64,000 bases of DNA from Sinorhizobium terangae. Lineage in GTDB: Bacteria > Pseudomonadota > Alphaproteobacteria > Rhizobiales > Rhizobiaceae. Below the pieces are notes generated by a model, which was not told where the DNA came from, ran no database searches, and saw only the letters and a program-made list of their open reading frames with translations. Every line of letters begins with the position of its first letter. Within the stretch, counting starts at the first letter, position 1. The stretch spans positions 342,127-406,126 of the forward strand of contig NZ_WITC01000036.1 in the NCBI RefSeq assembly GCF_009601505.1, given 5' to 3'. The position numbers and the translations under genes are program-made. Shown here in pieces: positions 5,026-57,560 of this stretch.

Positions 5026-5799
5026 ATGACGAGTACGGCCCAGGCAATCGCAGTCACTGACCTGCACAAGCGTTTCGGGCCATTGGAAGTGCTGAAAGGT
5101 GTGTCGCTTACGGCTCGACAGGGCGACGTCATCGCGATCATCGGCGGCAGCGGCTCGGGCAAGTCCACCCTCCTTCGCTGCATCAACATGCTGGAATTGC
5201 CGTCGGCCGGACGCGTCAGCGTTCACGGTGAGGAAATCCGGATGAAGCCCGATGGTCATGGCGGGCTGATGCCCGCCGATCGCAAGCAAGTGCAGCGCAT
5301 CCGCACCCAGCTCGGCATGGTCTTCCAGAGCTTCAACCTCTGGCAACACATGACCATTCTTCAAAACGTCATCGAAGTGCCGGTGCATGTGCTCGGCAAA
5401 TCCAAGGCCGAGGCGATCGAGACAGCCGAAACATTGCTGCGCAGGGTCGGACTTTACGAGAAGCGCGACGCCTATCCGGCCTTCCTTTCCGGCGGCCAGC
5501 AGCAACGCGCAGCGATCGCCCGTGCGCTGGCGATCCAGCCGCTGGTGATGCTCCTCGACGAACCGACCTCGGCCCTCGATCCGGAGCTTGTCGGCGAAGT
5601 CCTCTCCGTCATCGGCGATCTCGCGCACGAGAAGCGCACGATGATCCTCGTCACGCACGAGATGAAGTTCGCCCGCGACGTCGCCAACCACATCGTCTTC
5701 CTGCACAACGGCGTCATCGAAGAACAGGGGCCGCCCGAGGCAATCTTCGGCGCGCCGAGATCCGAGAGGCTCAAGAGGTTCATCAGCTCCATTCACTGA
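5026..5799 (+). CDS. Polar amino-acid ABC transporter ATP-binding protein
   Basis: The 257-residue ATPase of a HisP/GlnQ/OccP-type importer for polar or basic amino acids. Walker A GGSGSGKST is at 40-48, the Q-loop Gln near 101, the signature LSGGQ at 154-158, Walker B VMLLDEP at 174-180, and a switch His follows in LVTHEMKF. The ATG is preceded by GGGAG ten bases upstream. It is the first gene of the plus-strand unit, with the binding protein 36 bp downstream. It powers import by the two permeases encoded further along. Confidence 0.95.
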   Translation: MTSTAQAIAVTDLHKRFGPLEVLKGVSLTARQGDVIAIIGGSGSGKSTLLRCINMLELPSAGRVSVHGEEIRMKPDGHGGLMPADRKQVQRIRTQLGMVFQSFNLWQHMTILQNVIEVPVHVLGKSKAEAIETAETLLRRVGLYEKRDAYPAFLSGGQQQRAAIARALAIQPLVMLLDEPTSALDPELVGEVLSVIGDLAHEKRTMILVTHEMKFARDVANHIVFLHNGVIEEQGPPEAIFGAPRSERLKRFISSIH

Positions 5800-5835: not shown

Positions 5836-6618
5836 ATGAAGAAGACATTGAAACTCCTGGCGGTAGCGGCCGCATTGTCGATCACCGGCGCCGTCGCGGC
5901 GCAGGCGGAAACGGTCAAGGTCGGCTTTGCCGCCGAGCCCTACCCGCCCTTTACCTCGCCTGACGCCAACGGCAATTGGGAAGGCTGGGAAGTCGAGTTC
6001 ATGAAGGCGATCTGCGCCGAGGCGAAACTCGACTGCGTGATCACGCCGGTCGCGTGGGACGGCATCATCCCGGCGCTGACCTCCAAGAAGATCGACATGA
6101 TCATCGGTTCGATGTCGATCACGGAAGAGCGCCTGAAGACGATCGATTTCTCCGACAAATACTACAACACGCCGACCGGCATCATCGGCACCAAGGGCGA
6201 GGACATCAAGCCGACGCCGGAAGGCCTTTCGGGCAAGACGCTCGGCGTGCAGGTTTCGACCGTGCATCAGGCCTATGCGACCAAGCATTTCGCCCCGGCC
6301 GGCGTGGAGGTCAAGGAATACCAGACGCAGGACGAGGCAAACCAGGATCTGGCCGCCGGCCGTGTCGACGCGGTGCAGGCGGATGCGATCGCACTCGACG
6401 CCTTCCTGAAGAGCGACCAGGGCAATGAATGCTGCGACTACAAGGGTGATGTCGCCCAGGATCTCGCCGTCCTCGGCCCGGGGGTCGGTGTCGGCCTGCG
6501 CAAAGGCGAAGCCGAGCTCAAGGAAAAGATCAACGCGGCGATCAAGGCGATCCGCGCGAACGGCACCTACGATACCTTCTCGAAGAAGTATTTCGACTTC
6601 GACATCTATGGCGGCTAA
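5836..6618 (+). CDS. Periplasmic substrate-binding protein, lysine/arginine/ornithine or opine type
   Basis: A 260-residue family 3 solute-binding protein. The signal peptide is residues 1-24, with probable cleavage after AAQA. The mature start VKVGFAAEPYPPFTSPDANGN and the later GSMSITEERLKTIDFSDKYY are the classic basic amino acid/opine binding signatures. A strong site AGGGAACAGC precedes the ATG. The protein captures ligand in the periplasm and delivers it to the two permeases. Together with the AruH/AruI-like enzymes opposite, arginine or an arginine conjugate is a reasonable guess. A large stem-loop follows the stop codon. Confidence 0.93.
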   Translation: MKKTLKLLAVAAALSITGAVAAQAETVKVGFAAEPYPPFTSPDANGNWEGWEVEFMKAICAEAKLDCVITPVAWDGIIPALTSKKIDMIIGSMSITEERLKTIDFSDKYYNTPTGIIGTKGEDIKPTPEGLSGKTLGVQVSTVHQAYATKHFAPAGVEVKEYQTQDEANQDLAAGRVDAVQADAIALDAFLKSDQGNECCDYKGDVAQDLAVLGPGVGVGLRKGEAELKEKINAAIKAIRANGTYDTFSKKYFDFDIYGG

Positions 6619-6658: not shown

Positions 6659-6770
6659 TATAGCGCTGCGCACCCATTCGGAGCGCATGGTCGCTGTAAC
6701 ACCTTGATTGGCTGCATCTCTCCGGCTCGGCTCCGAGCTGGGGGCTATGCAGAAGGAGCATGAAGTCGCC

Positions 6771-7496
6771 ATGGCTGCGGATTCCATCATCAACTGGAGC
6801 CTGCTTTCGCTCTCGGCGCCCGGCTGGGGCGGCGTATTGCTGCAAGGCTTTCTCCATTCGATTCAGATCGCGGTCGGCGGCTACGCGCTTGGCCTCCTGC
6901 TCGGCGTCGGCGGTGCCTTCGGCAAGCTCTATGGCGGGCCGGTAACGCGCGATCTTCTCGAATGCTACACCACCATCGTCCGGGCGGTGCCTGAGCTCGT
7001 TCTCATTCTCCTCCTCTACTATGCCGGGACCGACCTCTTGAACCAGCTTCTCGGCGCCGTCGGCTTCGAGGCGGTGGACATCAGCGGCCTGATGGCCGGC
7101 ATCTTCGTCATTGGCGTCGTTCAGGGGGCGTATTCGACCGAAGTGTTGCGCGGGGCGATCAAGGCCGTACCCGCCGGCCAGATCGAGGCGGCGCGCGCCT
7201 ATGGCATGTCGCCCGGAAAGGTCCTGCGGCGTGTCACCCTGCCTGCCATGCTGCCCTATGCCATCCCCGGCCTTGCCAATCTCTGGCTGATCGCCACGAA
7301 GGACACCGCCCTGCTCGCCGTCGTCGGCTTCAGCGAGCTGACGCTGGCAACCCGCCAGGCGGCCGGCGCAACCAAGGCCTATCTGCTTTTCTTCTGCGCG
7401 GCCGGCGCGCTCTATCTCGCGCTGACGCTCGTTTCCAACGTCTTCATCGGCGCGTTGGAAAGGCATGCCAGGCGCGGTTTCGTGGAGCAGCGATGA
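6771..7496 (+). CDS. Polar amino-acid ABC transporter permease (HisQ/OccQ type)
   Basis: A 241-residue inner-membrane permease of the HisMQ family, with about five membrane helices and the cytoplasmic EAA loop (GAIKAVPAGQIEAARAYGMS) that docks on the ATPase. In-frame starts also exist at 6708 (TTG) and 6747 (ATG). I chose the ATG at 6771 because the membrane domain starts soon after it and AAGGAG lies 12 bases upstream. The 3' end overlaps the second permease by ATGA. The two permeases should form a heterodimeric channel. Confidence 0.9.
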   Translation: MAADSIINWSLLSLSAPGWGGVLLQGFLHSIQIAVGGYALGLLLGVGGAFGKLYGGPVTRDLLECYTTIVRAVPELVLILLLYYAGTDLLNQLLGAVGFEAVDISGLMAGIFVIGVVQGAYSTEVLRGAIKAVPAGQIEAARAYGMSPGKVLRRVTLPAMLPYAIPGLANLWLIATKDTALLAVVGFSELTLATRQAAGATKAYLLFFCAAGALYLALTLVSNVFIGALERHARRGFVEQR

Positions 7497-8431
7497 CCAA
7501 CGAAACAACCCACGCGCTCGATCACGCTGATTTTGGATTGAATCAATCCAAAATCACAAATGTGATCGATTCTAATAAGTTGGAGCGGGATGCGGGCGGA
7601 AAACCGCTTCACACTTTTCCTCATCCCGCTCTGGGCTTCACCCCCGAGGACCTGCCGAAGGGCGAGAGCTTCCTCAAACCGCATCGTATCGTGCTCATCC
7701 TCTTCGCCGCCGCACTCATAGTCGCCGTCGCAATCCTCATGCGCTGGGATTGGCTGCCGCGCTACCTGCCGAGGCTCGGCTCCGGCATCCTTGTCAGCAT
7801 GGTGATGCTGTTCGCCACCTCGATTCTCGGTTTCCTGTTTGCCGTGCCGCTGGGTCTCGTCCAGGTCACCGGCCCCTGGTATCTCAAGGGCCTTGCCCGG
7901 ATCTTCTGTACGGTCATCCGCGGGACGCCGCTGCTCCTGCAACTGTGGCTGCTCTATTACGGGCTCGGCTCGCTGTTTCCGCAATTCCCGGCGATTCGCC
8001 ACTCGTTTCTCTGGCCGTATCTGCGCGAAGCCTGGCCGTATGGCGTCGCCGCACTCACCATCTCCTTCGCCGCCTACGAGGGCGAAGTGATGCGCGGCGC
8101 CTTTGCCGGCGTGCCCGCGGGCGAGCTGGAGGCGGCGCGAGCCTATGGCATGAGCCGCTGGACGATATTCCGGCGGATCTGGCTGCCGCGTGCGATTCAC
8201 CGCGCGCTTCCGACACTCAACGGCGAAACCGTATTGCAGCTCAAGTCGACGCCGCTGGTCGCGACGATCACCGTCGTCGATGTCTACGCGGTCATCTCGA
8301 AGGTACGGCAGGAAACCTATCTCACCTACGAACCGCTGCTGCTGCTTGCTCTGATCTATCTGTGCCTTACGGGCATTCTGGTGATCGCCTTCCGCTATTT
8401 CGAAAACCGCATACCGACTCGTGGTGCCTGA
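7493..8431 (+). CDS. Polar amino-acid ABC transporter permease (HisM/OccM type) with a repeat-derived N-terminal extension
   Basis: A 312-residue permease. Membrane helices begin near residue 65 (RIVLILFAAALIVAVAILM), and the EAA loop is in MRGAFAGVPAGELEAARAYG. It is translationally coupled to the first permease. Residues about 10-47 are encoded by a copy of the family A palindromic repeat found elsewhere in the window outside genes. The repeat is read through in frame without a stop and makes a hydrophilic cytoplasmic extension. This explains why the protein is about 70 residues longer than its partner. The core permease fold appears intact. Confidence 0.9.
   Translation: MTNETTHALDHADFGLNQSKITNVIDSNKLERDAGGKPLHTFPHPALGFTPEDLPKGESFLKPHRIVLILFAAALIVAVAILMRWDWLPRYLPRLGSGILVSMVMLFATSILGFLFAVPLGLVQVTGPWYLKGLARIFCTVIRGTPLLLQLWLLYYGLGSLFPQFPAIRHSFLWPYLREAWPYGVAALTISFAAYEGEVMRGAFAGVPAGELEAARAYGMSRWTIFRRIWLPRAIHRALPTLNGETVLQLKSTPLVATITVVDVYAVISKVRQETYLTYEPLLLLALIYLCLTGILVIAFRYFENRIPTRGA
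7520..7634 (+). repeat. Family A two-hairpin repeat inside a coding sequence
   Basis: About 115 bp with two dyads: TTTTGGATT/AATCCAAAA around GAATC, and AGCGGGATG/CATCCCGCT around an internal GC-rich hairpin. The same order and much of the same sequence (TAATAAGTT, GAGCGGGATGCGGGC, TTTTCCTCATCCCGCT) recur in non-coding DNA at 14093-14200. The layout of two large palindromes resembles RIME elements of Rhizobiaceae. Here the whole element is part of the permease reading frame. Confidence 0.85.
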
Positions 8432-8432
8432 C

Positions 8433-9599
8433 ATGAAGCTCTCCGCCGCCATCGACAACGCCCTGCCGGAACTGGTGGCGATCCGCCGCGACCTGCATGC
8501 GCATCCGGAATTGGGTCTCGAGGAGACGCGGACCTCGGCGTTCATTGCGCGGCACCTCGATGCGCTTGGCTACACGGTAACGACTGGACTTGCGAAGACC
8601 GGCGTGGTCGGCACGCTGAGGAACGGCACCGGGGGGCGCTCGATCGGCATCCGCGCGGATATCGATGCCTTGCCGATCCACGAGGAGACCGGTCTCGACT
8701 ATGCCAGCACGACGCCGGGGTTGATGCACGCCTGCGGGCATGACGGCCATACGGCGATGCTGCTCGGCGCCGCCCGCGCGCTTGCCGAACGGAGGAATTT
8801 CGACGGCACGATCCATCTCATCTTCCAGCCGGCCGAGGAGAACTTCGGCGGTGCGAAGATCATGATCGACGAGGGCCTGTTCGAGAAATTCCCCTGCGAC
8901 GCCGTGTTCGCGCTCCACAACGAACCGAACCTTCCCTTCGGCCAGTTCGCCCTGCGCGAAGGCCCGATCATGGCAGCGGTGGACGAGGCGCGGATCACCG
9001 TCCATGGCCGTGGCGGTCACGGCGCCGAACCGCAGGAGACCGCCGATCCGATCGTCTGCGGCGCCAGCATCGTCATGGCGCTGCAGTCCATCGTGTCGCG
9101 CAACATCCACCCCATGGACCCGACCGTCGTCACGGTCGGCGCCTTTCACGCCGGCTCCGCGAGCAACATCATTCCGGAGCGGGCCGAGATCGTCGTCGGC
9201 ATTCGCTCCTTTGACCCCGCCGTTCGCGATGAGCTGGAGCGCCGCATCCGAATGATCACGGAGGCGCAGGCGACAAGCTTCGGCATGCGCGCCACCGTCG
9301 ACTATCAGCGTAGCTATGACGCGACGATCAACCACAAGAGGGAGACCGATTTCGTCCGCGACCTTGCGATCCGCTTCGCCGGGCCAGACAAGATTGTTGA
9401 TCTTGCTCGCCCGTTCATGGGCAGCGAGGATTTCGCCTACATGCTGAAGGAGCGGCCCGGCAGCTATTTCTTTCTCGGATCAAGAGTGACCGGCGACGAG
9501 AAACCGCTCCACCATCCCGGCTACAACTTCAATGACGACCTGCTGCCGATCGGCGCCGCCTTCTGGACCGAGCTCGCAGAGAGCTATCTTGCCGGATGA
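8433..9599 (+). CDS. M20D family amidohydrolase (hippurate hydrolase/N-acyl amino acid hydrolase type)
   Basis: A 388-residue zinc amidohydrolase. The metal ligands C101 and H103 lie in MHACGHDGHTAML and the catalytic/metal Glu pair is E135/E136 in FQPAEENFGG; a dimerisation domain (about 180-290) follows. The ATG lies one base after the permease stop. A GTG four codons earlier overlaps that gene and is less likely. Enzymes of this family cleave N-acyl, N-benzoyl or auxin-conjugate amides of amino acids. As the last gene of the transporter operon it may release a free amino acid from an imported conjugate, which the aminotransferase opposite could then use; that link is inference. Confidence 0.88.
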   Translation: MKLSAAIDNALPELVAIRRDLHAHPELGLEETRTSAFIARHLDALGYTVTTGLAKTGVVGTLRNGTGGRSIGIRADIDALPIHEETGLDYASTTPGLMHACGHDGHTAMLLGAARALAERRNFDGTIHLIFQPAEENFGGAKIMIDEGLFEKFPCDAVFALHNEPNLPFGQFALREGPIMAAVDEARITVHGRGGHGAEPQETADPIVCGASIVMALQSIVSRNIHPMDPTVVTVGAFHAGSASNIIPERAEIVVGIRSFDPAVRDELERRIRMITEAQATSFGMRATVDYQRSYDATINHKRETDFVRDLAIRFAGPDKIVDLARPFMGSEDFAYMLKERPGSYFFLGSRVTGDEKPLHHPGYNFNDDLLPIGAAFWTELAESYLAG

Positions 9600-9650
9600 G
9601 CAACACTAGAAGCAGTTCTCAGCCCGAATCCAGCGTCTCAGCTTATTAGA

Positions 9651-9702
9651 GCCGATCACGTTTATGATTTTTGGGTCGATTCGGCCTAAAATCAGCGTGA
9701 CC
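9651..9702 (+). repeat. Family A repeat, first hairpin only
   Basis: A truncated copy resembling the first palindrome of the 7520-7634 element: GATCACG, then TGATTTT...AAAATCA around a GGGTCGATTCGGCC core, then CGTGACC. The rest of the gap between the amidohydrolase and glycosyltransferase genes shows nothing else. Confidence 0.55.
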
Positions 9703-9780
9703 TAAAATGCATGCATGTAACGGTCAATGCGGGATGCCTTGTTTTGAGTGTTTGACAGCAACCAGACAGGTTCTCCGATC

Positions 9781-14092: not shown

Positions 14093-14200
14093 CATGATGA
14101 TTCTGGATCGAATCGATCCAGAATCATGGTAATCGTTGTAATAAGTTAGAGCGGGATGCGGGCAGTAAACCGCACACAATTTTCCTCATCCCGCTATGGC
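14093..14200 (+). repeat. Family A two-hairpin repeat, intergenic copy
   Basis: Two palindromes, TTCTGGATCGA/TCGATCCAGAA and AGCGGGATG/CATCCCGCT, in the same order as the copy inside the permease gene at 7520-7634. It is joined directly to a family B element downstream. It lies in the 590-bp gap between the cyd operon and the chorismate mutase gene, which holds repeats and no gene I can support. Confidence 0.8.
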
Positions 14201-14300
14201 ATGATTCCTTAAAGCGGAATCGATTTAAGGACAAAATCATGCAGCCATTCAAATTGCTAGAGCGCCCTTAGCGCTTCCGATTGGACGCGTGGCGCTGTAG
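14200..14300 (+). repeat. Family B two-hairpin repeat
   Basis: This copy shows CATGATTCCTT...AAGGACAAAATCATG, a junction resembling CAATTCAAAGTGCTACAGCG, then a second hairpin with a TCCGATTGGACGCG core ending GGCGCTGTAG. The family consensus is two nested palindromes: CTGCATGATT/AATCATGCAG enclosing CCTTAAATCG/CGATTTAAGG, then CTACAGCG/CGCTGTAG enclosing GCGCGTCC/GGACGCGC. Confidence 0.8.
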
Positions 14301-14368
14301 GTCGCTGCGGTCGTTTTGCCTCTTCTCAGCCACGCTTCGCTTTGCTAGCAGTTCGGCCGCAACGAACC

Positions 14369-14470
14369 CTACGGCGCCGCGCGTCCTATCAGACGCCCAA
14401 AGGGCGCTGTAGCCTTTGAATCTCTGCGTGTTTTGTCCTTGGATCGCTACGATTCAAGGAAACATGCAGT
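14369..14470 (-). repeat. Family B repeat, inverted copy
   Basis: Reverse-oriented copy: CTACGGCGCCGCGCGTCC, a GACGC return, CGCTGTAG, then a diverged first hairpin with CCTTGGATCG and CGATTCAAGG and the end ACATGCAG. It reaches to just before the chorismate mutase gene, so the apparent coding extension from 14416 is repeat sequence. Confidence 0.7.
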
Positions 14471-18773: not shown

Positions 18774-18965
18774 CTGCATGACAAAATCGTGCAGCAATTC
18801 AATGTGCTACAGCCCGCAGCTTCTAGACGCTTTTGCGCGGACGATCACGCGACATTATCTGACTGGTTTATCGATTTTTGTGATGTTTCGCGGCACCTAC
18901 AGCGCCGTGCGTCTTTTCAGACGCACAAGGGACGCTGTAGCACTTTGAATCCCTGGATGTTTTTA
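18774..18965. repeat. Two partial family B repeats in opposite orientation
   Basis: A forward fragment (GCAGCAATTCAATGTGCTAC) and an inverted fragment (CCTACAGCGCCGTGCGTC, then CGCTGTAGCACTTTGAAT) flank about 70 bp of unrelated sequence. The pair fills the gap between the aminotransferase and mscL genes. Confidence 0.65.
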
Positions 18966-19004
18966 CCGGCCAGCGAGATCGAAGCCGCAATCGCCGTGAG
19001 GCGA

Positions 19005-27425: not shown

Positions 27426-27460
27426 GTCAGGTTCCTTGCGGGCGGCTTCCGAACCGACCA

Positions 27461-27563
27461 CTACAGCGGCATCCAATCAGACGCGCAAAGAACGCTGTAG
27501 CACTTTGAAGTGCTGCATGTTTTTATCCTTAAATCGGCTACGATTTAAGGAAACATGCAGTAG
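27461..27563 (-). repeat. Family B repeat, inverted full-length copy
   Basis: Nearly complete: CTACAGCGGC, ATCCAATCAGACGCGC, CGCTGTAGCACTTTGAAGTG, then the CCTTAAATCG...CGATTTAAGG hairpin and end ACATGCAGTAG. It fills the gap between the MATE gene start and the end of the CAP-domain gene. Confidence 0.85.
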
Positions 27564-27572
27564 GGAATCAGG

Positions 27573-33932: not shown

Positions 33933-33999
33933 CTACTGCATGATTGCTTAAATCGGACAGCGAGCTTGGCGCGTCCAATTGGACGCGCGGCGCTGTAGT
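33933..33999 (+). repeat. Family B repeat with internal deletion
   Basis: CTACTGCATGATTGCTTAAA runs directly into the second hairpin (GGCGCGTCC AATT GGACGCGC, GGCGCTGTAG), losing about 40 bp. It lies between the convergent pdeM and DHFR-like genes. Confidence 0.75.
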
Positions 34000-34014
34000 C
34001 CGTCGGCAAGCGGT

Positions 34015-35112: not shown

Positions 35113-35209
35113 GAGCATTTTCCCGTCTTAGCGAAACGGGGAAATGCTCCAACTCTTTGACGGCGCAATTTCGGACGGAAAACCGTGGCACACTTTTCCT
35201 GGAATTGCC
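35113..35209 (+). repeat. Family C repeat, single copy
   Basis: A first hairpin GAGCATTT...AAATGCTC around a CCCGT/ACGGG stem, then GGACGGAAAACCGT, CACACTTTTCC and TGGAATTGCC. The second half matches the unit tandemly repeated at 37613-37775. A family B copy follows directly. Confidence 0.7.
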
Positions 35210-35317
35210 TCTACAGCGCCGGGCGTCCAATCGGACGCGCCAAGGCCGCTGTAGCACTTTGATTTGCTGCATGATTTTATCCTTAAATCGATTCCGATTT
35301 AAGGAATCATGCAGTAG
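35210..35317 (-). repeat. Family B repeat, inverted full-length copy
   Basis: One of the best-preserved copies: CTACAGCGCC, GGCGTCCAATCGGACGC, GCTGTAGCACTTTGATTTG, GCATGATTTTATCCTT, and the ATCGATTCCGAT core to CATGCAGTAG. With the adjoining family C copy it accounts for most of the 330-bp gap between the RAM-domain gene and the TIGR02186 gene; no gene is seen in the gap. Confidence 0.85.
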
Positions 35318-35369
35318 ACCACCGCCGCACAAAAGGGAACGCGAAGAGGACGCATGTCGATAAGAATAG

Positions 35370-37152: not shown

Positions 37153-37300
37153 CAATCCCTAACCGGAATCGATTGAGGAATTGTGCAATGCCTACTGCAT
37201 GTTTCCTTAAATCGGAACCGATTTAAGGACAAAAAACATGCAGCAATTCAAAGCGCTACAGCGACCTTTGTGCGTCTGAAAAGACGCACGATGCTGTAGG
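37153..37300 (+). repeat. Family B repeat, full copy preceded by a half copy
   Basis: A degenerate first hairpin (CACAATCCCTAA...GAGGAATTGTG) is followed by a complete element: CTACTGCATG, CCTTAAATCGGAACCGATTT, ACATGCAGCAATTCAAAGCG, GTGCGTCT...AGACGCAC and GATGCTGTAGG. It lies in the 676-bp gap between the TSUP gene and podJ. The gap also holds the family C tandem array; 37301-37560 shows nothing recognisable. Confidence 0.8.
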
Positions 37301-37561: not shown

Positions 37562-37776
37562 AGATCATTTCGTTGTTTTATTGAAACAGTGAAATGACCC
37601 AGCTCCTTGCTGCGACGCGATTCCGGACGGAAAACCGCTGCGCACTTTTTCCTGGAATTGCTCTTTGAAGCGACGCAATTCCGGACGGAGAACCGCTGCG
37701 CACTTTTCCTGGAATTGCTCTTTGAAGCGACGCAATTCCGGACGGAAAACCGCTGCGCACTTTTCCTGGAATTGCT
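37562..37776 (+). repeat. Family C repeat with a tandem triplication
   Basis: A first hairpin GATCATTTC...GAAATGACC is followed by three successive copies of a 57-58 bp unit starting at 37613, 37671 and 37728. Each runs CGACGC(G/A)ATTCCGGACGG, AAAACCGCTGCGCAC, TTTTCCTGGAATTGCT, and the first two end in CTTTGAAG. The copies differ by only a few bases, so the expansion looks recent. The array ends on the stop codon of podJ (opposite strand). Confidence 0.9.
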
Positions 37777-51484: not shown

Positions 51485-51539
51485 ATCCTCTTGCGCCGGA
51501 ACCCCTGGGAGCGCAGGCGGCAGGCCGAGCATCGTTCCG

Positions 51540-51601
51540 TGCAGCAATTCAACGTGCTACAGCGTCCCTTGCGCGACTGATAAGACATGCGGCGCTGTCA
51601 G
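51540..51601 (+). repeat. Partial family B repeat
   Basis: Second half only: TGCAGCAATTCAACGTGCTA, CAGCGTCCCTTGCGCGACTG, then CATGCGGCGCTGTCAG. It lies just upstream of the fatty-acid hydroxylase gene. Confidence 0.7.
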
Positions 51602-51623
51602 CGCATCGACGAGGTCTAAACGG

Positions 51624-52436
51624 ATGCTGTTTTACGGTGTTGCGGAACCGCTCTGGCGCCTCATCGCCTTTGGCGCTGCCTTTGCCCTCCTCGCGCTACT
51701 CGAACTCTCTCATCCGCGTCTGGAACGACCGGAGCTCGTGAAAGCCTTGAAGGCGCGTCGTTGGGCGACGAACCTTTCGATCCTCCTTCTCTCCTCGCTG
51801 TTCCTGCGCATCGTCTTTCCGGCCGCCGCCACAGGCGTCGCGCTCTGGGCCGGCATACACGGATATGGGGCGCTGCCCGCACTCGGCTTCCCACCGCTTC
51901 TCTCCGGCCTCATCGCATTCGTCGTCTTGGATTTCGCCGTCTGGCTGGAACATGTCGCGTCCCATAAGCTGCCGATCCTCTGGCGCATCCACCGCGTCCA
52001 CCATACCGACCCCGGCGTCGACCTGACGACCGCGCTCCGCTTCCATCCGCTGGAAATTCTTCTGTCGATGGTGTGGAAGGCGGCGATCATTGTCACGCTT
52101 GGCGCTCCAGCCCTATCCGTCCTGCTTTTCGAAATCGTTCTCAACGCCGGCGCCATGTTCAACCACGCCAATCTGCGACTGCCGTCCAAGGCCGAGAAGA
52201 GGCTGCGGCGTCTCATCGTCACGCCGGACATGCATCGCATCCATCACTCCGTCGAGAGAAACGAGACGGATTCCAACTACGGGTTCAATCTTTCCATCTG
52301 GGACCGGCTGTTCGCGACCTATGTGGCACAGCCGGCAAATGGCGACGATGCGATCGAAACGGGCCTCCGGGCTTATGGGCGCGACAAGCCGACCAGGCTC
52401 GTCTGGTCGCTGATGCTGCCCTTCCGGCGCGGCTAG
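51624..52436 (+). CDS. Sterol desaturase/fatty-acid hydroxylase superfamily membrane enzyme
   Basis: A 270-residue di-iron membrane protein with four or so helices and the eight-His pattern in three boxes: HVASHKLP, IHRVHHTD and MHRIHHSVER, plus HANLRLP. These enzymes hydroxylate or desaturate lipid chains on the membrane surface. The substrate (fatty acid, ornithine lipid or hopanoid-like) is not defined. It is single and flanked by repeats. Confidence 0.88.
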   Translation: MLFYGVAEPLWRLIAFGAAFALLALLELSHPRLERPELVKALKARRWATNLSILLLSSLFLRIVFPAAATGVALWAGIHGYGALPALGFPPLLSGLIAFVVLDFAVWLEHVASHKLPILWRIHRVHHTDPGVDLTTALRFHPLEILLSMVWKAAIIVTLGAPALSVLLFEIVLNAGAMFNHANLRLPSKAEKRLRRLIVTPDMHRIHHSVERNETDSNYGFNLSIWDRLFATYVAQPANGDDAIETGLRAYGRDKPTRLVWSLMLPFRRG

Positions 52437-52642
52437 AGCATCCTGCTTTCAAGTGGAATCACTGAAAGCGGATAAGATGCTCTAGAATCAAAGTGCTATA
52501 GCGTCCTTTGTGCGTTCATTTGAACGCACGGCGCTCTACTGCATAATTCCTTAAATCGGAATCGATTTAAGGATAAAATCATGCAGCAAATCAAAGTGCT
52601 ACAGCGGCCTTGGCGCGTCCGATTGGACGCGCGGCGCTGTAG
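52434..52642 (+). repeat. Two family B repeats in tandem
   Basis: The first unit (to 52535) has a variant hairpin GAGCATCCTGCTTTC...AAGATGCTC, then GTGCTATAGCGTCC and GTGCGTTCATTTGAACGCAC. The second is almost the consensus: TACTGCATAATTCC, TTAAATCGGAATCGATTTAA, AAAATCATGCAGC, CTACAGCGGCC, GGCGCGTCCGATTGGACGCG and GGCGCTGTAGG. They fill the gap to the convergent binding-protein gene. Confidence 0.85.
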
Positions 52643-52645
52643 GAG

Positions 52646-53670: not shown

Positions 53671-53745
53671 GGAGCGGGTGATCGGGATCGAACCGACGAC
53701 ATCAAGCTTGGGAAGCTGGCGTTCTACCACTGAACTACACCCGCG
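53671..53745 (-). tRNA. tRNA-Gly (anticodon CCC), CCA encoded
   Basis: Full cloverleaf on the minus strand. The acceptor stem GCGGGTG/CACCCGC is perfect and the CCA is encoded. The D-arm is GTTC/GAAC, the anticodon loop TTCCCAA (CCC at plus-strand 53711-53713) and the T-arm GTCGG-TTCGATC-CCGAT. The anticodon stem CCAGC/GCTTG has one C-T mismatch (positions 28/42). It reads GGG codons. Confidence 0.95.
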
Positions 53746-54948: not shown

Positions 54949-55030
54949 ACCGATCCTCATTCCAGTTGCCCGACAAAACCAAACTCCGGGAATTGACGCA
55001 AGCACGCCCAGGCAGTATTGGAGCTTTATC

Positions 55031-55083
55031 CCGTGGTGATTTGGCCGGTCGGCTTGCAGCCACGTTAAACAAGTAGCTAAAAA
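55031..55083 (+). promoter_or_regulatory. SAM-II riboswitch
   Basis: Matches the compact pseudoknotted SAM-II (metA-type) aptamer known upstream of methionine genes in alphaproteobacteria. CGTGG (55032-55036) can pair with CCACG (55060-55064), GGTGATTTGGCC (55035-55046) is the conserved 5' segment, and GCTTGCAGC, CACGTTAAAC and GCTAAA follow in the expected order. It senses S-adenosylmethionine and controls metZ downstream. Confidence 0.93.
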
Positions 55084-55124
55084 GGCCGGGTGTCAAACCG
55101 GCCCGTTTCGCGGCCGGTTTTTTT
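55084..55124 (+). terminator. Riboswitch expression platform: competing antiterminator and terminator hairpins
   Basis: GGCCGG (55084-55089) can pair with CCGGCC (55098-55103). Alternatively ACCGGCC (55097-55103) pairs with GGCCGGT (55112-55118), followed by six more T residues, an intrinsic terminator. The two hairpins share 55098-55103 and exclude each other, so SAM binding probably selects transcription termination before metZ. Confidence 0.85.
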
Positions 55125-57498: not shown

Positions 57499-57508
57499 GG
57501 GTGCGGCT

Positions 57509-57560
57509 CCTACAGCGTCGCGCGTCTTACCAGACGCGCCAAGGACGCTTTAGCACCTCA
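57509..57560 (-). repeat. Partial family B repeat
   Basis: Inverted second hairpin CTACAGCGTCGCGCGTC, then CCAGACGCGCC and AAGGACGCTTTAGCACCTCA, between convergent apaG and hslO. Confidence 0.65.

Follow-up and report, generated by a model that had tools for sequence, protein, structure and literature searches.

The window, a 64,000-nucleotide stretch of the 7.08-Mb Sinorhizobium terangae genome, contains an operon for a polar amino acid ABC transporter. The genes for the ATPase, the binding protein, a HisQ-like permease and a HisM-like permease succeed one another in that order and are followed by an amidohydrolase gene (Table 1). We take the first of these to encode the ATPase of the transporter. 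The reading frame of the HisM-like permease is as the earlier note on this DNA gave it. Its product harbors a Pfam BPD_transp_1 domain at residues 121-307, and its best NCBIfam matches are HisM and ArtM, neither of which reaches its cut-off. The ATG of this gene overlaps the stop codon of the HisQ-type permease gene (ATGA at 7493-7496). For the latter gene the start codon is our choice, as the listed open reading frame opens at 6708.

Table 1. Features of the transporter operon and copies of the repeat in the window
Feature	Position	Strand	Evidence or remark
Presumed ATPase of the transporter	5026..5799	+	ORF with Walker-type stretch GGSGSGKST
Substrate-binding protein, same transporter	5836..6618	+	Pfam, NCBIfam
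HisQ-type permease, upstream partner	6759..7496	+	Pfam, NCBIfam
HisM-type polar amino acid ABC permease with insert	7493..8431	+	ATG start, 312 aa; ORF list and profile searches
Original N terminus, MTNETTHAL	7493..7519	+	Common to orthologues of the genus with and without the insert
In-frame repeat insertion, 114 nt, codons 10-47	7520..7633	+	Repeat matches; absent from empty orthologues
5′ hairpin of the element, arms GATCACG...GTGATC	7520..7567	+	Fold, covariation, element alignments
3′ hairpin half, GAGCGGGATG...CATCCCGCTC, encoding ERDAGGKPLHTFPHPAL	7582..7632	+	CTTCAC variant, one base longer
Diverged noncoding copy of the repeat, inverted	9590..9720 (approximate)	-	Inverted repeat; just downstream of the operon, after the amidohydrolase gene
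Noncoding copy of the family	14093..14200	+	81% identity to the permease insert

Filled and empty alleles of the permease gene

The earlier note had proposed that about 115 bp of a palindromic repeat form codons 10-47 of the HisM-type permease. Alignment with homologues, the check that it had suggested, gave a clean gap at these residues. The repeat is thus where it had been placed, with its size corrected to 114 bp, i.e., a 112-nt element plus 2 nt, the ends of which are uncertain by a few bases. Alignments of filled and empty orthologues position it directly after L9, between MTxETTHAL and AFTPEDLP. Both stretches are kept around the gap. The N terminus concerned is probably cytoplasmic.

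The genus was sampled with 33 genomes, 32 of which have an orthologue of the permease. The insert is present in seven orthologues from six species (G000 and G032, which represent one species, G026, G016, G030, G005, and G022), and its reading frame is open in all six. Another 23 orthologues were read and found empty, and two (G011 and G021) were inferred to be empty from the start of the match. Three close species (G027, G028, and G010) are among those without the insert. Among named relatives, 80 of the 183 loci found were kept; 77 lack the insert, and the other three, probably from G022, G026, and G030 themselves, carry it. No homologue encoding the same 38 residues without a nearby repeat came to light, the repeat being present at the site in none of the 100 insert-free loci read.

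The insert is most likely translated as a segment of 37 to 38 residues, as judged from the sequence comparisons described below. The idea that the gain is recent is doubtful, since several species have the insert in common, with differences of approximately 14 to 20% in the 5′ half. The gain of an in-frame repeat by a rhizobial ABC permease is supported. That a functional domain was gained is conjectural; the 5′ half looks neutral at the protein level.

An interspersed repeat family with two hairpins

We searched the genome of origin with positions 7500-7640. This DNA search, in which 40 of 140 first-look candidates were scored, yielded at least 42 matches, namely the query, one match of its own palindrome and 40 others, with E values down to 2e-38. 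The family is interspersed across the genus and has many noncoding copies, including the one at 14093-14200 that had been recognized before. Fold prediction gives an element of approximately 112 nt with two unlike hairpins. Both palindromes are intact in the permease insert, as had been claimed, with a predicted minimum free energy of -50.7 kcal/mol for the RNA, compared with -23.9 kcal/mol (standard deviation, 3.4) for shuffled sequences (z = -7.9). The diverged inverted copy downstream of the operon has a counterpart in G016.

The permease insert belongs to a subtype with one base more than the common type (CCGCTTCACAC versus CCGC-GCACAC). Pattern searches allowing up to two mismatches, for which backward-pattern controls gave no match, returned 142 matches of this CTTCAC subtype in 25 of the 33 genomes and 920 matches of the common type in all 33. 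The CTTCAC pattern also hits tandem units of 54 to 59 nt that are not full elements. In the window, three tandem units of 57 to 58 nt resembling the 3′ half of the element lie at 37589-37775, and similar arrays occur in other genomes, G009, G011, G016, and G018 among them. Five species (L126, L127, L130, L143, and L183) share an orthologous intergenic copy of the CTTCAC type in which the 5′ hairpin is shortened; it could be used as a neutral yardstick.

In-frame copies in other genes

The earlier note had also suggested a search of the genome for other in-frame copies. Of 70 peptide matches in the genome of origin, only that in the permease is full length with coding-like sequence in frame on either flank. 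The 21 other places that were opened (14 with long frames and 7 more, the remainder having mostly short frames) turned out to be antisense frames, run-ons, or regions upstream of the likely true start. The permease is thus the sole convincing case in this genome, and the further cases are in other species.

These are three genes, coding for TsaD in G026, a large unnamed protein in G017 and a prophage portal protein in G021. Like the permease, they are conserved genes with insert-free homologues. Two of them came from a peptide search with 1,455 six-frame matches in total. From the best-scoring part of these, 40 places were fetched, chosen mainly for long open frames, and among 23 open frames inspected, tsaD and the G017 gene were accepted. 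The other open frames were dismissed on frame composition, short flanks, or neighboring genes; one of them, L170, lies between what we take to be lpxI-like and lpxB-like genes. A frame-independent pattern screen of 50 loci, corresponding to 60 distinct contexts of the 142 CTTCAC matches, recovered the permease and added the portal protein. Seven loci with open-looking frames (L366, L367, L372, L373, L374, L383, and L397) were rejected as antisense or upstream of a start, and in a slipin match on S. meliloti pMl9 the repeat only touches the gene end. A reverse-frame probe gave no confirmed case among the places opened, a minority of its matches.

In tsaD of G026, a full copy is inserted in frame (L149, 1501-1611) between FAAVDQPA and VVAGGVAANQ, immediately ahead of the region that forms the second block in alignments with solved TsaD structures. 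The insert-bearing protein scores 415 bits with the NCBIfam TsaD model (cut-off, 296). Each of the 33 genomes has a single tsaD match, so that this copy, known from one draft assembly, is the only one of G026; 29 of the 30 tsaD loci read are without the insert. In many bacteria TsaD is an essential protein. The permease and TsaD models obtained with AlphaFold were unusable (mean pLDDT of 39 and 32, with shallow alignments). The G017 protein, matched in 32 of the 33 genomes, carries a more diverged in-frame copy that is lacking from the other 29 of 30 loci read; the partial sequence searched received no Pfam or NCBIfam name. In the portal protein of G021 (L380, minus strand; PHROG annotation, portal), 18 codons corresponding to the 3′ half of the element (HAFERAGGIPLHTFPHAA) are inserted around codon 200 of the open frame. 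They are absent from all three homologues compared, one of which, from the remnant of a Sinorhizobium prophage, shows 81% identity across roughly half of the protein. To judge from this case, phage genes are also among the targets of the repeat.

In all four genes the element lies on the same strand and is read in the same frame, through LHTFPHPA or a relic of it. This uniformity is partly built in, since it was a probe for this very frame that detected two of the four genes.

Length, frame, and target site

All eight rows of full-length in-gene copies, which represent three or four events, are 109 or 112 nt long. The noncoding set comprises 79 rows spanning GATCACG to CCCGCTC, some of them orthologous to each other. 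Its commonest length is 111 nt (33/79), while 109 nt (13/79) and 112 nt (12/79) together account for 25 rows. The comparison of lengths is biased, as it involves three to four full-length events, two of which were found with a peptide probe of that frame. Read in the frame used by the permease, the common 111-nt copy ends in its own TAG, as for example in L151.

The dinucleotide TA abuts the noncoding element on the left in 57 of the 79 rows, on the right in 44, and on both sides in 32. These flanks suggest a 2-nt target duplication, which would keep the frame only for copies of 1-mod-3 length, such as those of 109 and 112 nt. The TA flanks belong to the noncoding copies, and no identical duplication was seen at the in-gene ones, the permease having mostly TC and TG flanks and tsaD having AA and TG.

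History of the insert

On the rpoB tree, with strain BR816 (G022) included, the filled state requires at least four changes. Both rpoB and the upstream gene, represented by the 700 nt that precede the second permease, reject a clade of the five filled genes of the terangae group (p = 0.023 and 0.010, respectively). The permease sequence after the insert does not reject such a clade, and the five genes lie on one side of a branch with support of 30/0; this tree does not reject the species pairing of G026 with G027 either (p = 0.47). In the best tree of the element itself, the five inserts are not a clade, and one clade is not rejected (p = 0.40). The filled state therefore conflicts with the rpoB and upstream-gene trees, which calls for recombination, loss, or repeated insertion.

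One possibility is that the terangae group inherited the insert from its ancestor and that G027, G028, and G010 then lost it by precise excision. The empty alleles are indeed joined as in other species, without a scar, and the changes counted on the rpoB tree would also be consistent with repeated loss. Yet the tree of the permease, unlike those of the neighboring genes, can hold the filled genes together. We therefore lean, weakly, to allele exchange over repeated precise excision, which we regard as possible but rather unlikely. We know of no transposase or excision product for this repeat family.

BR816 belongs to the fredii group, and its insert may stem from an independent insertion, deep ancestry, or transfer. 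Homologous transfer from a donor of the terangae group would explain why the 3′ halves differ at only one to three of 51 positions, though the rest of the gene is about 18% different. Against this, the flanks of the BR816 insert look fredii-like, by eye, up to about 50 nt from it on the left side and to a few nucleotides from it on the right. The best element tree places this insert next to the tsaD copy on an unsupported branch (96/0), and the data do not reject a single origin for the six permease inserts together (p = 0.34). Such a transfer is thus unlikely, and BR816 may represent a second insertion at the same site.

Evolution of the hairpins

In the 5′ half of the insert, 9 of 21 first codon positions are variable, compared with 37 of 265 in the remainder of the gene (p = 0.002), and so are 8 of 21 second positions, compared with 20 of 265 (p = 0.0003). 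Third positions are as variable as elsewhere in the gene. Over the whole insert, 98.6% of the cells are paired, and six pairs changed on both sides versus 2.1 in shuffled data. The covariation score exceeds those of all 500 shuffles, a result that comes from six related sequences and so is not a probability.

The 5′ hairpin has become a perfect 21-bp palindrome in G030 and in BR816 through the loss of a 3-nt bulge, accompanied by matching changes in the arm. Template switching at quasipalindromes gives such perfect palindromes in Escherichia coli (PMC7202029, available part), and in yeast template switching is reported to alter coding sequences (PMC8604942, available part). Selection on the RNA is not needed, since template switching would yield a 5′ hairpin that is both kept and perfected. 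Three noncoding copies are likewise without the bulge, indicating that the size of this step, 3 nt, follows from the structure; it is no evidence of selection for the frame.

The two halves diverge at different rates. Among the five permeases of the terangae group, divergence is 0.024 in the 3′ half versus 0.063 to 0.107 in intergenic copies, and 0.142 in the 5′ half versus 0.041 to 0.066, the intergenic baseline being three sets of orthologous copies that are partly from other species. Third positions of the 3′ half are variable at 2 of 16 sites versus 146 of 265 in the rest of the gene when all six species are counted (p = 0.001), and at 2 of 16 versus 92 of 265 in the terangae group alone (p = 0.10). 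The six-species test is void if BR816 represents a separate insertion.

Strong hairpins kept through paired changes and an unusually conserved 3′ half would be expected if the translated insert were retained because its mRNA hairpins regulate the second permease, by affecting stability or translation, as proposed for REP-type elements. We consider this improbable. Template switching keeps the arms without selection, and the third-position effect is not significant within the terangae group; the six-species count assumes that the BR816 insert is orthologous. That effect is also milder in a sliding-window scan, in which 9 of 248 windows from elsewhere in the gene are equally invariant at third positions. 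Moreover, the start region is predicted to be similarly accessible in filled (0.33 to 0.40) and empty (0.21 to 0.37) genes, and the three close species G027, G028, and G010 manage without the insert.

The start of translation

The start codon, the ribosome-binding region, and the first nine residues are common to filled and empty genes. The 22 nt upstream, ending in GGAGCAGCG, are near-identical in the 13 genes compared (6 filled and 7 empty), and MTxETTHA is conserved across the genus. If translation started instead at an internal TTG or GTG (codon 16, 24, or 30) or after codon 47, the element would be a 5′ untranslated insert. A TTG at codon 16, inside the hairpin of the element, is present in all six filled species, and start-like codons at 67 to 69 occur in three of the six (GTG67 in G000, ATG69 in G005, and ATG68 in G022). 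In addition, REPs near predicted 5′ ends may be noncoding (PMC3733652, available part). However, the ATG, the upstream 22 nt, and the ATGA overlap are shared by genes with and without the insert, as is MTxETTHA across the genus. The TTG at codon 30 is missing in G030 and the GTG at codon 24 in G022, while G026, G016, and G030 have no start-like codon at 67 to 69. A start after residue 47, which the earlier note had named as a way to refute its proposal, is hence not favored. Finally, the copies in tsaD, the G017 gene, and the portal gene lie mid-gene, where the 5′ untranslated reading cannot apply. We judge that reading very unlikely for the permease. Chance similarity of the insert to the repeat is ruled out by the matches in the same genome and by the z-score of the fold.

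A model for in-frame insertion

We propose that a nonautonomous palindromic repeat, similar to miniature inverted-repeat transposable elements (MITEs) and Rickettsia palindromic elements (RPEs), was inserted in frame near the 5′ end of the HisM-type permease gene. Insertion may duplicate 2 nt, as the TA beside noncoding copies suggests. A copy of 1-mod-3 length (109 or 112 nt; here the CTTCAC-like variant) would then add whole codons, and this length would shift the terminal TAG of the element out of frame. With the common 111-nt copy, the gene would gain 113 nt, and a frameshift or termination would follow. Copies of 1-mod-3 length would therefore survive in genes where extra residues are tolerated. 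Template switching at the quasipalindrome would later re-perfect the 5′ hairpin, changing amino acids under little constraint. The patchy distribution among species may reflect exchange of filled and empty alleles, perhaps with a second insertion in BR816. We give this explanation as a whole, with its repeat insertion, most likely translated segment, length rule, and template switching, a probability of about 0.8.

A more specific version is tentative and, in our view, doubtful. In it, the CTTCAC subtype of 1-mod-3 length would be a portable coding cassette, able to insert into genes and leave them intact. It would have entered the permease site twice, in the terangae group and in BR816, at a GCnCT-like target also present in tsaD and in the gene of G017. 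In the permease, the 3′ half of the element (ERDAGGKPLHTFPHPA) would now be under constraint.

Relation to known repeats

RPEs are palindromic repeats of 105 to 146 bp found in frame in 19 reading frames, with an equivalent in Wolbachia, and at least one insert-bearing product, Gmk, was reported to be translated and active (PMC2229807, available part). The rhizobial family resembles them in its interspersed palindromic copies and in its in-frame insertion into conserved proteins. It differs in that its hosts are free-living rhizobia, the likeness being one of kind and drawn from genes alone, and in that an incomplete screen of 33 genomes gave four in-frame genes compared with the 19 reported in the available part of that source. 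Fusions of MITEs with open frames are described for ERIC/RU-1, YAPL/RU-2, and RU-3 in enterobacteria and Yersinia (PMC2229807, available part) and for Coxiella MITEs (PMC5896051, available part). As far as these accounts go, our element is MITE-like in being short and nonautonomous, with in-frame fusions in several genes, and TA often lies at the ends of its noncoding copies. Its ends, GATCACG and CCCGCTC, are, by eye, not clear terminal inverted repeats, and it has two internal hairpins. GTAG- or CGTC-tagged REPs occur inside open reading frames of several species (PMC3733652, available part); REPs, as that part describes them, are tagged units of 20 to 40 bp, whereas the rhizobial element is about 112 nt long with two unlike hairpins.

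Within the window, the repeat has no match in Rfam. Sm-5 and other pSymB repeats, located from the available part of PMC2780559, gave partial matches only, and the place of Sm-4 gave none, so that none of them identifies the family. There was no copy between or directly beside chvI and chvG, the place expected for RIME in another strain from the title of a paper, in the three genomes inspected (G014, G007, and G000); in G000, a partial copy is located roughly 2 kb from chvI, on the far side of pckA. We named chvI and chvG ourselves, presumably correctly. RIME, reportedly described by Osteras in 1995, is said to consist of rhizobial interspersed repeats with large palindromes. The family may or may not belong to RIME and, on present evidence, should not be called by that name.

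In-frame palindromic repeats are already known as a kind, and the rhizobial family would be a new addition. No printed report of such repeats in Sinorhizobium was found in a literature search excluding most subscription journals. Apart from MITE fusions in other bacteria, discussion of such in-frame repeats has centered on intracellular species, Rickettsia and Wolbachia among them. Here, a junk-like hairpin repeat appears to be read as extra protein. A free-living rhizobial family with filled and empty alleles in sister species would open experiments on whether inserts are neutral, harmful, or useful, and could be used to ask whether template switching, not selection, keeps the hairpins. The sole, normally essential tsaD with a repeat is a strong natural test of tolerance.

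Other features of the window

A second, mosaic palindromic repeat family (GCGCGTCC...GGACGCGC, with a CTTAAATCG unit) is in places joined to pieces of the first. Its sites in the window are 14194-14415, 18783-18970, 27457-27564, 33957-34000, 35161-35324, 37191-37300, 51533-51609, 52433-52645, and 57506-57556. The window also contains a tRNA gene at 53673-53744 on the minus strand and a SAM_alpha riboswitch at 55023-55101 on the plus strand.
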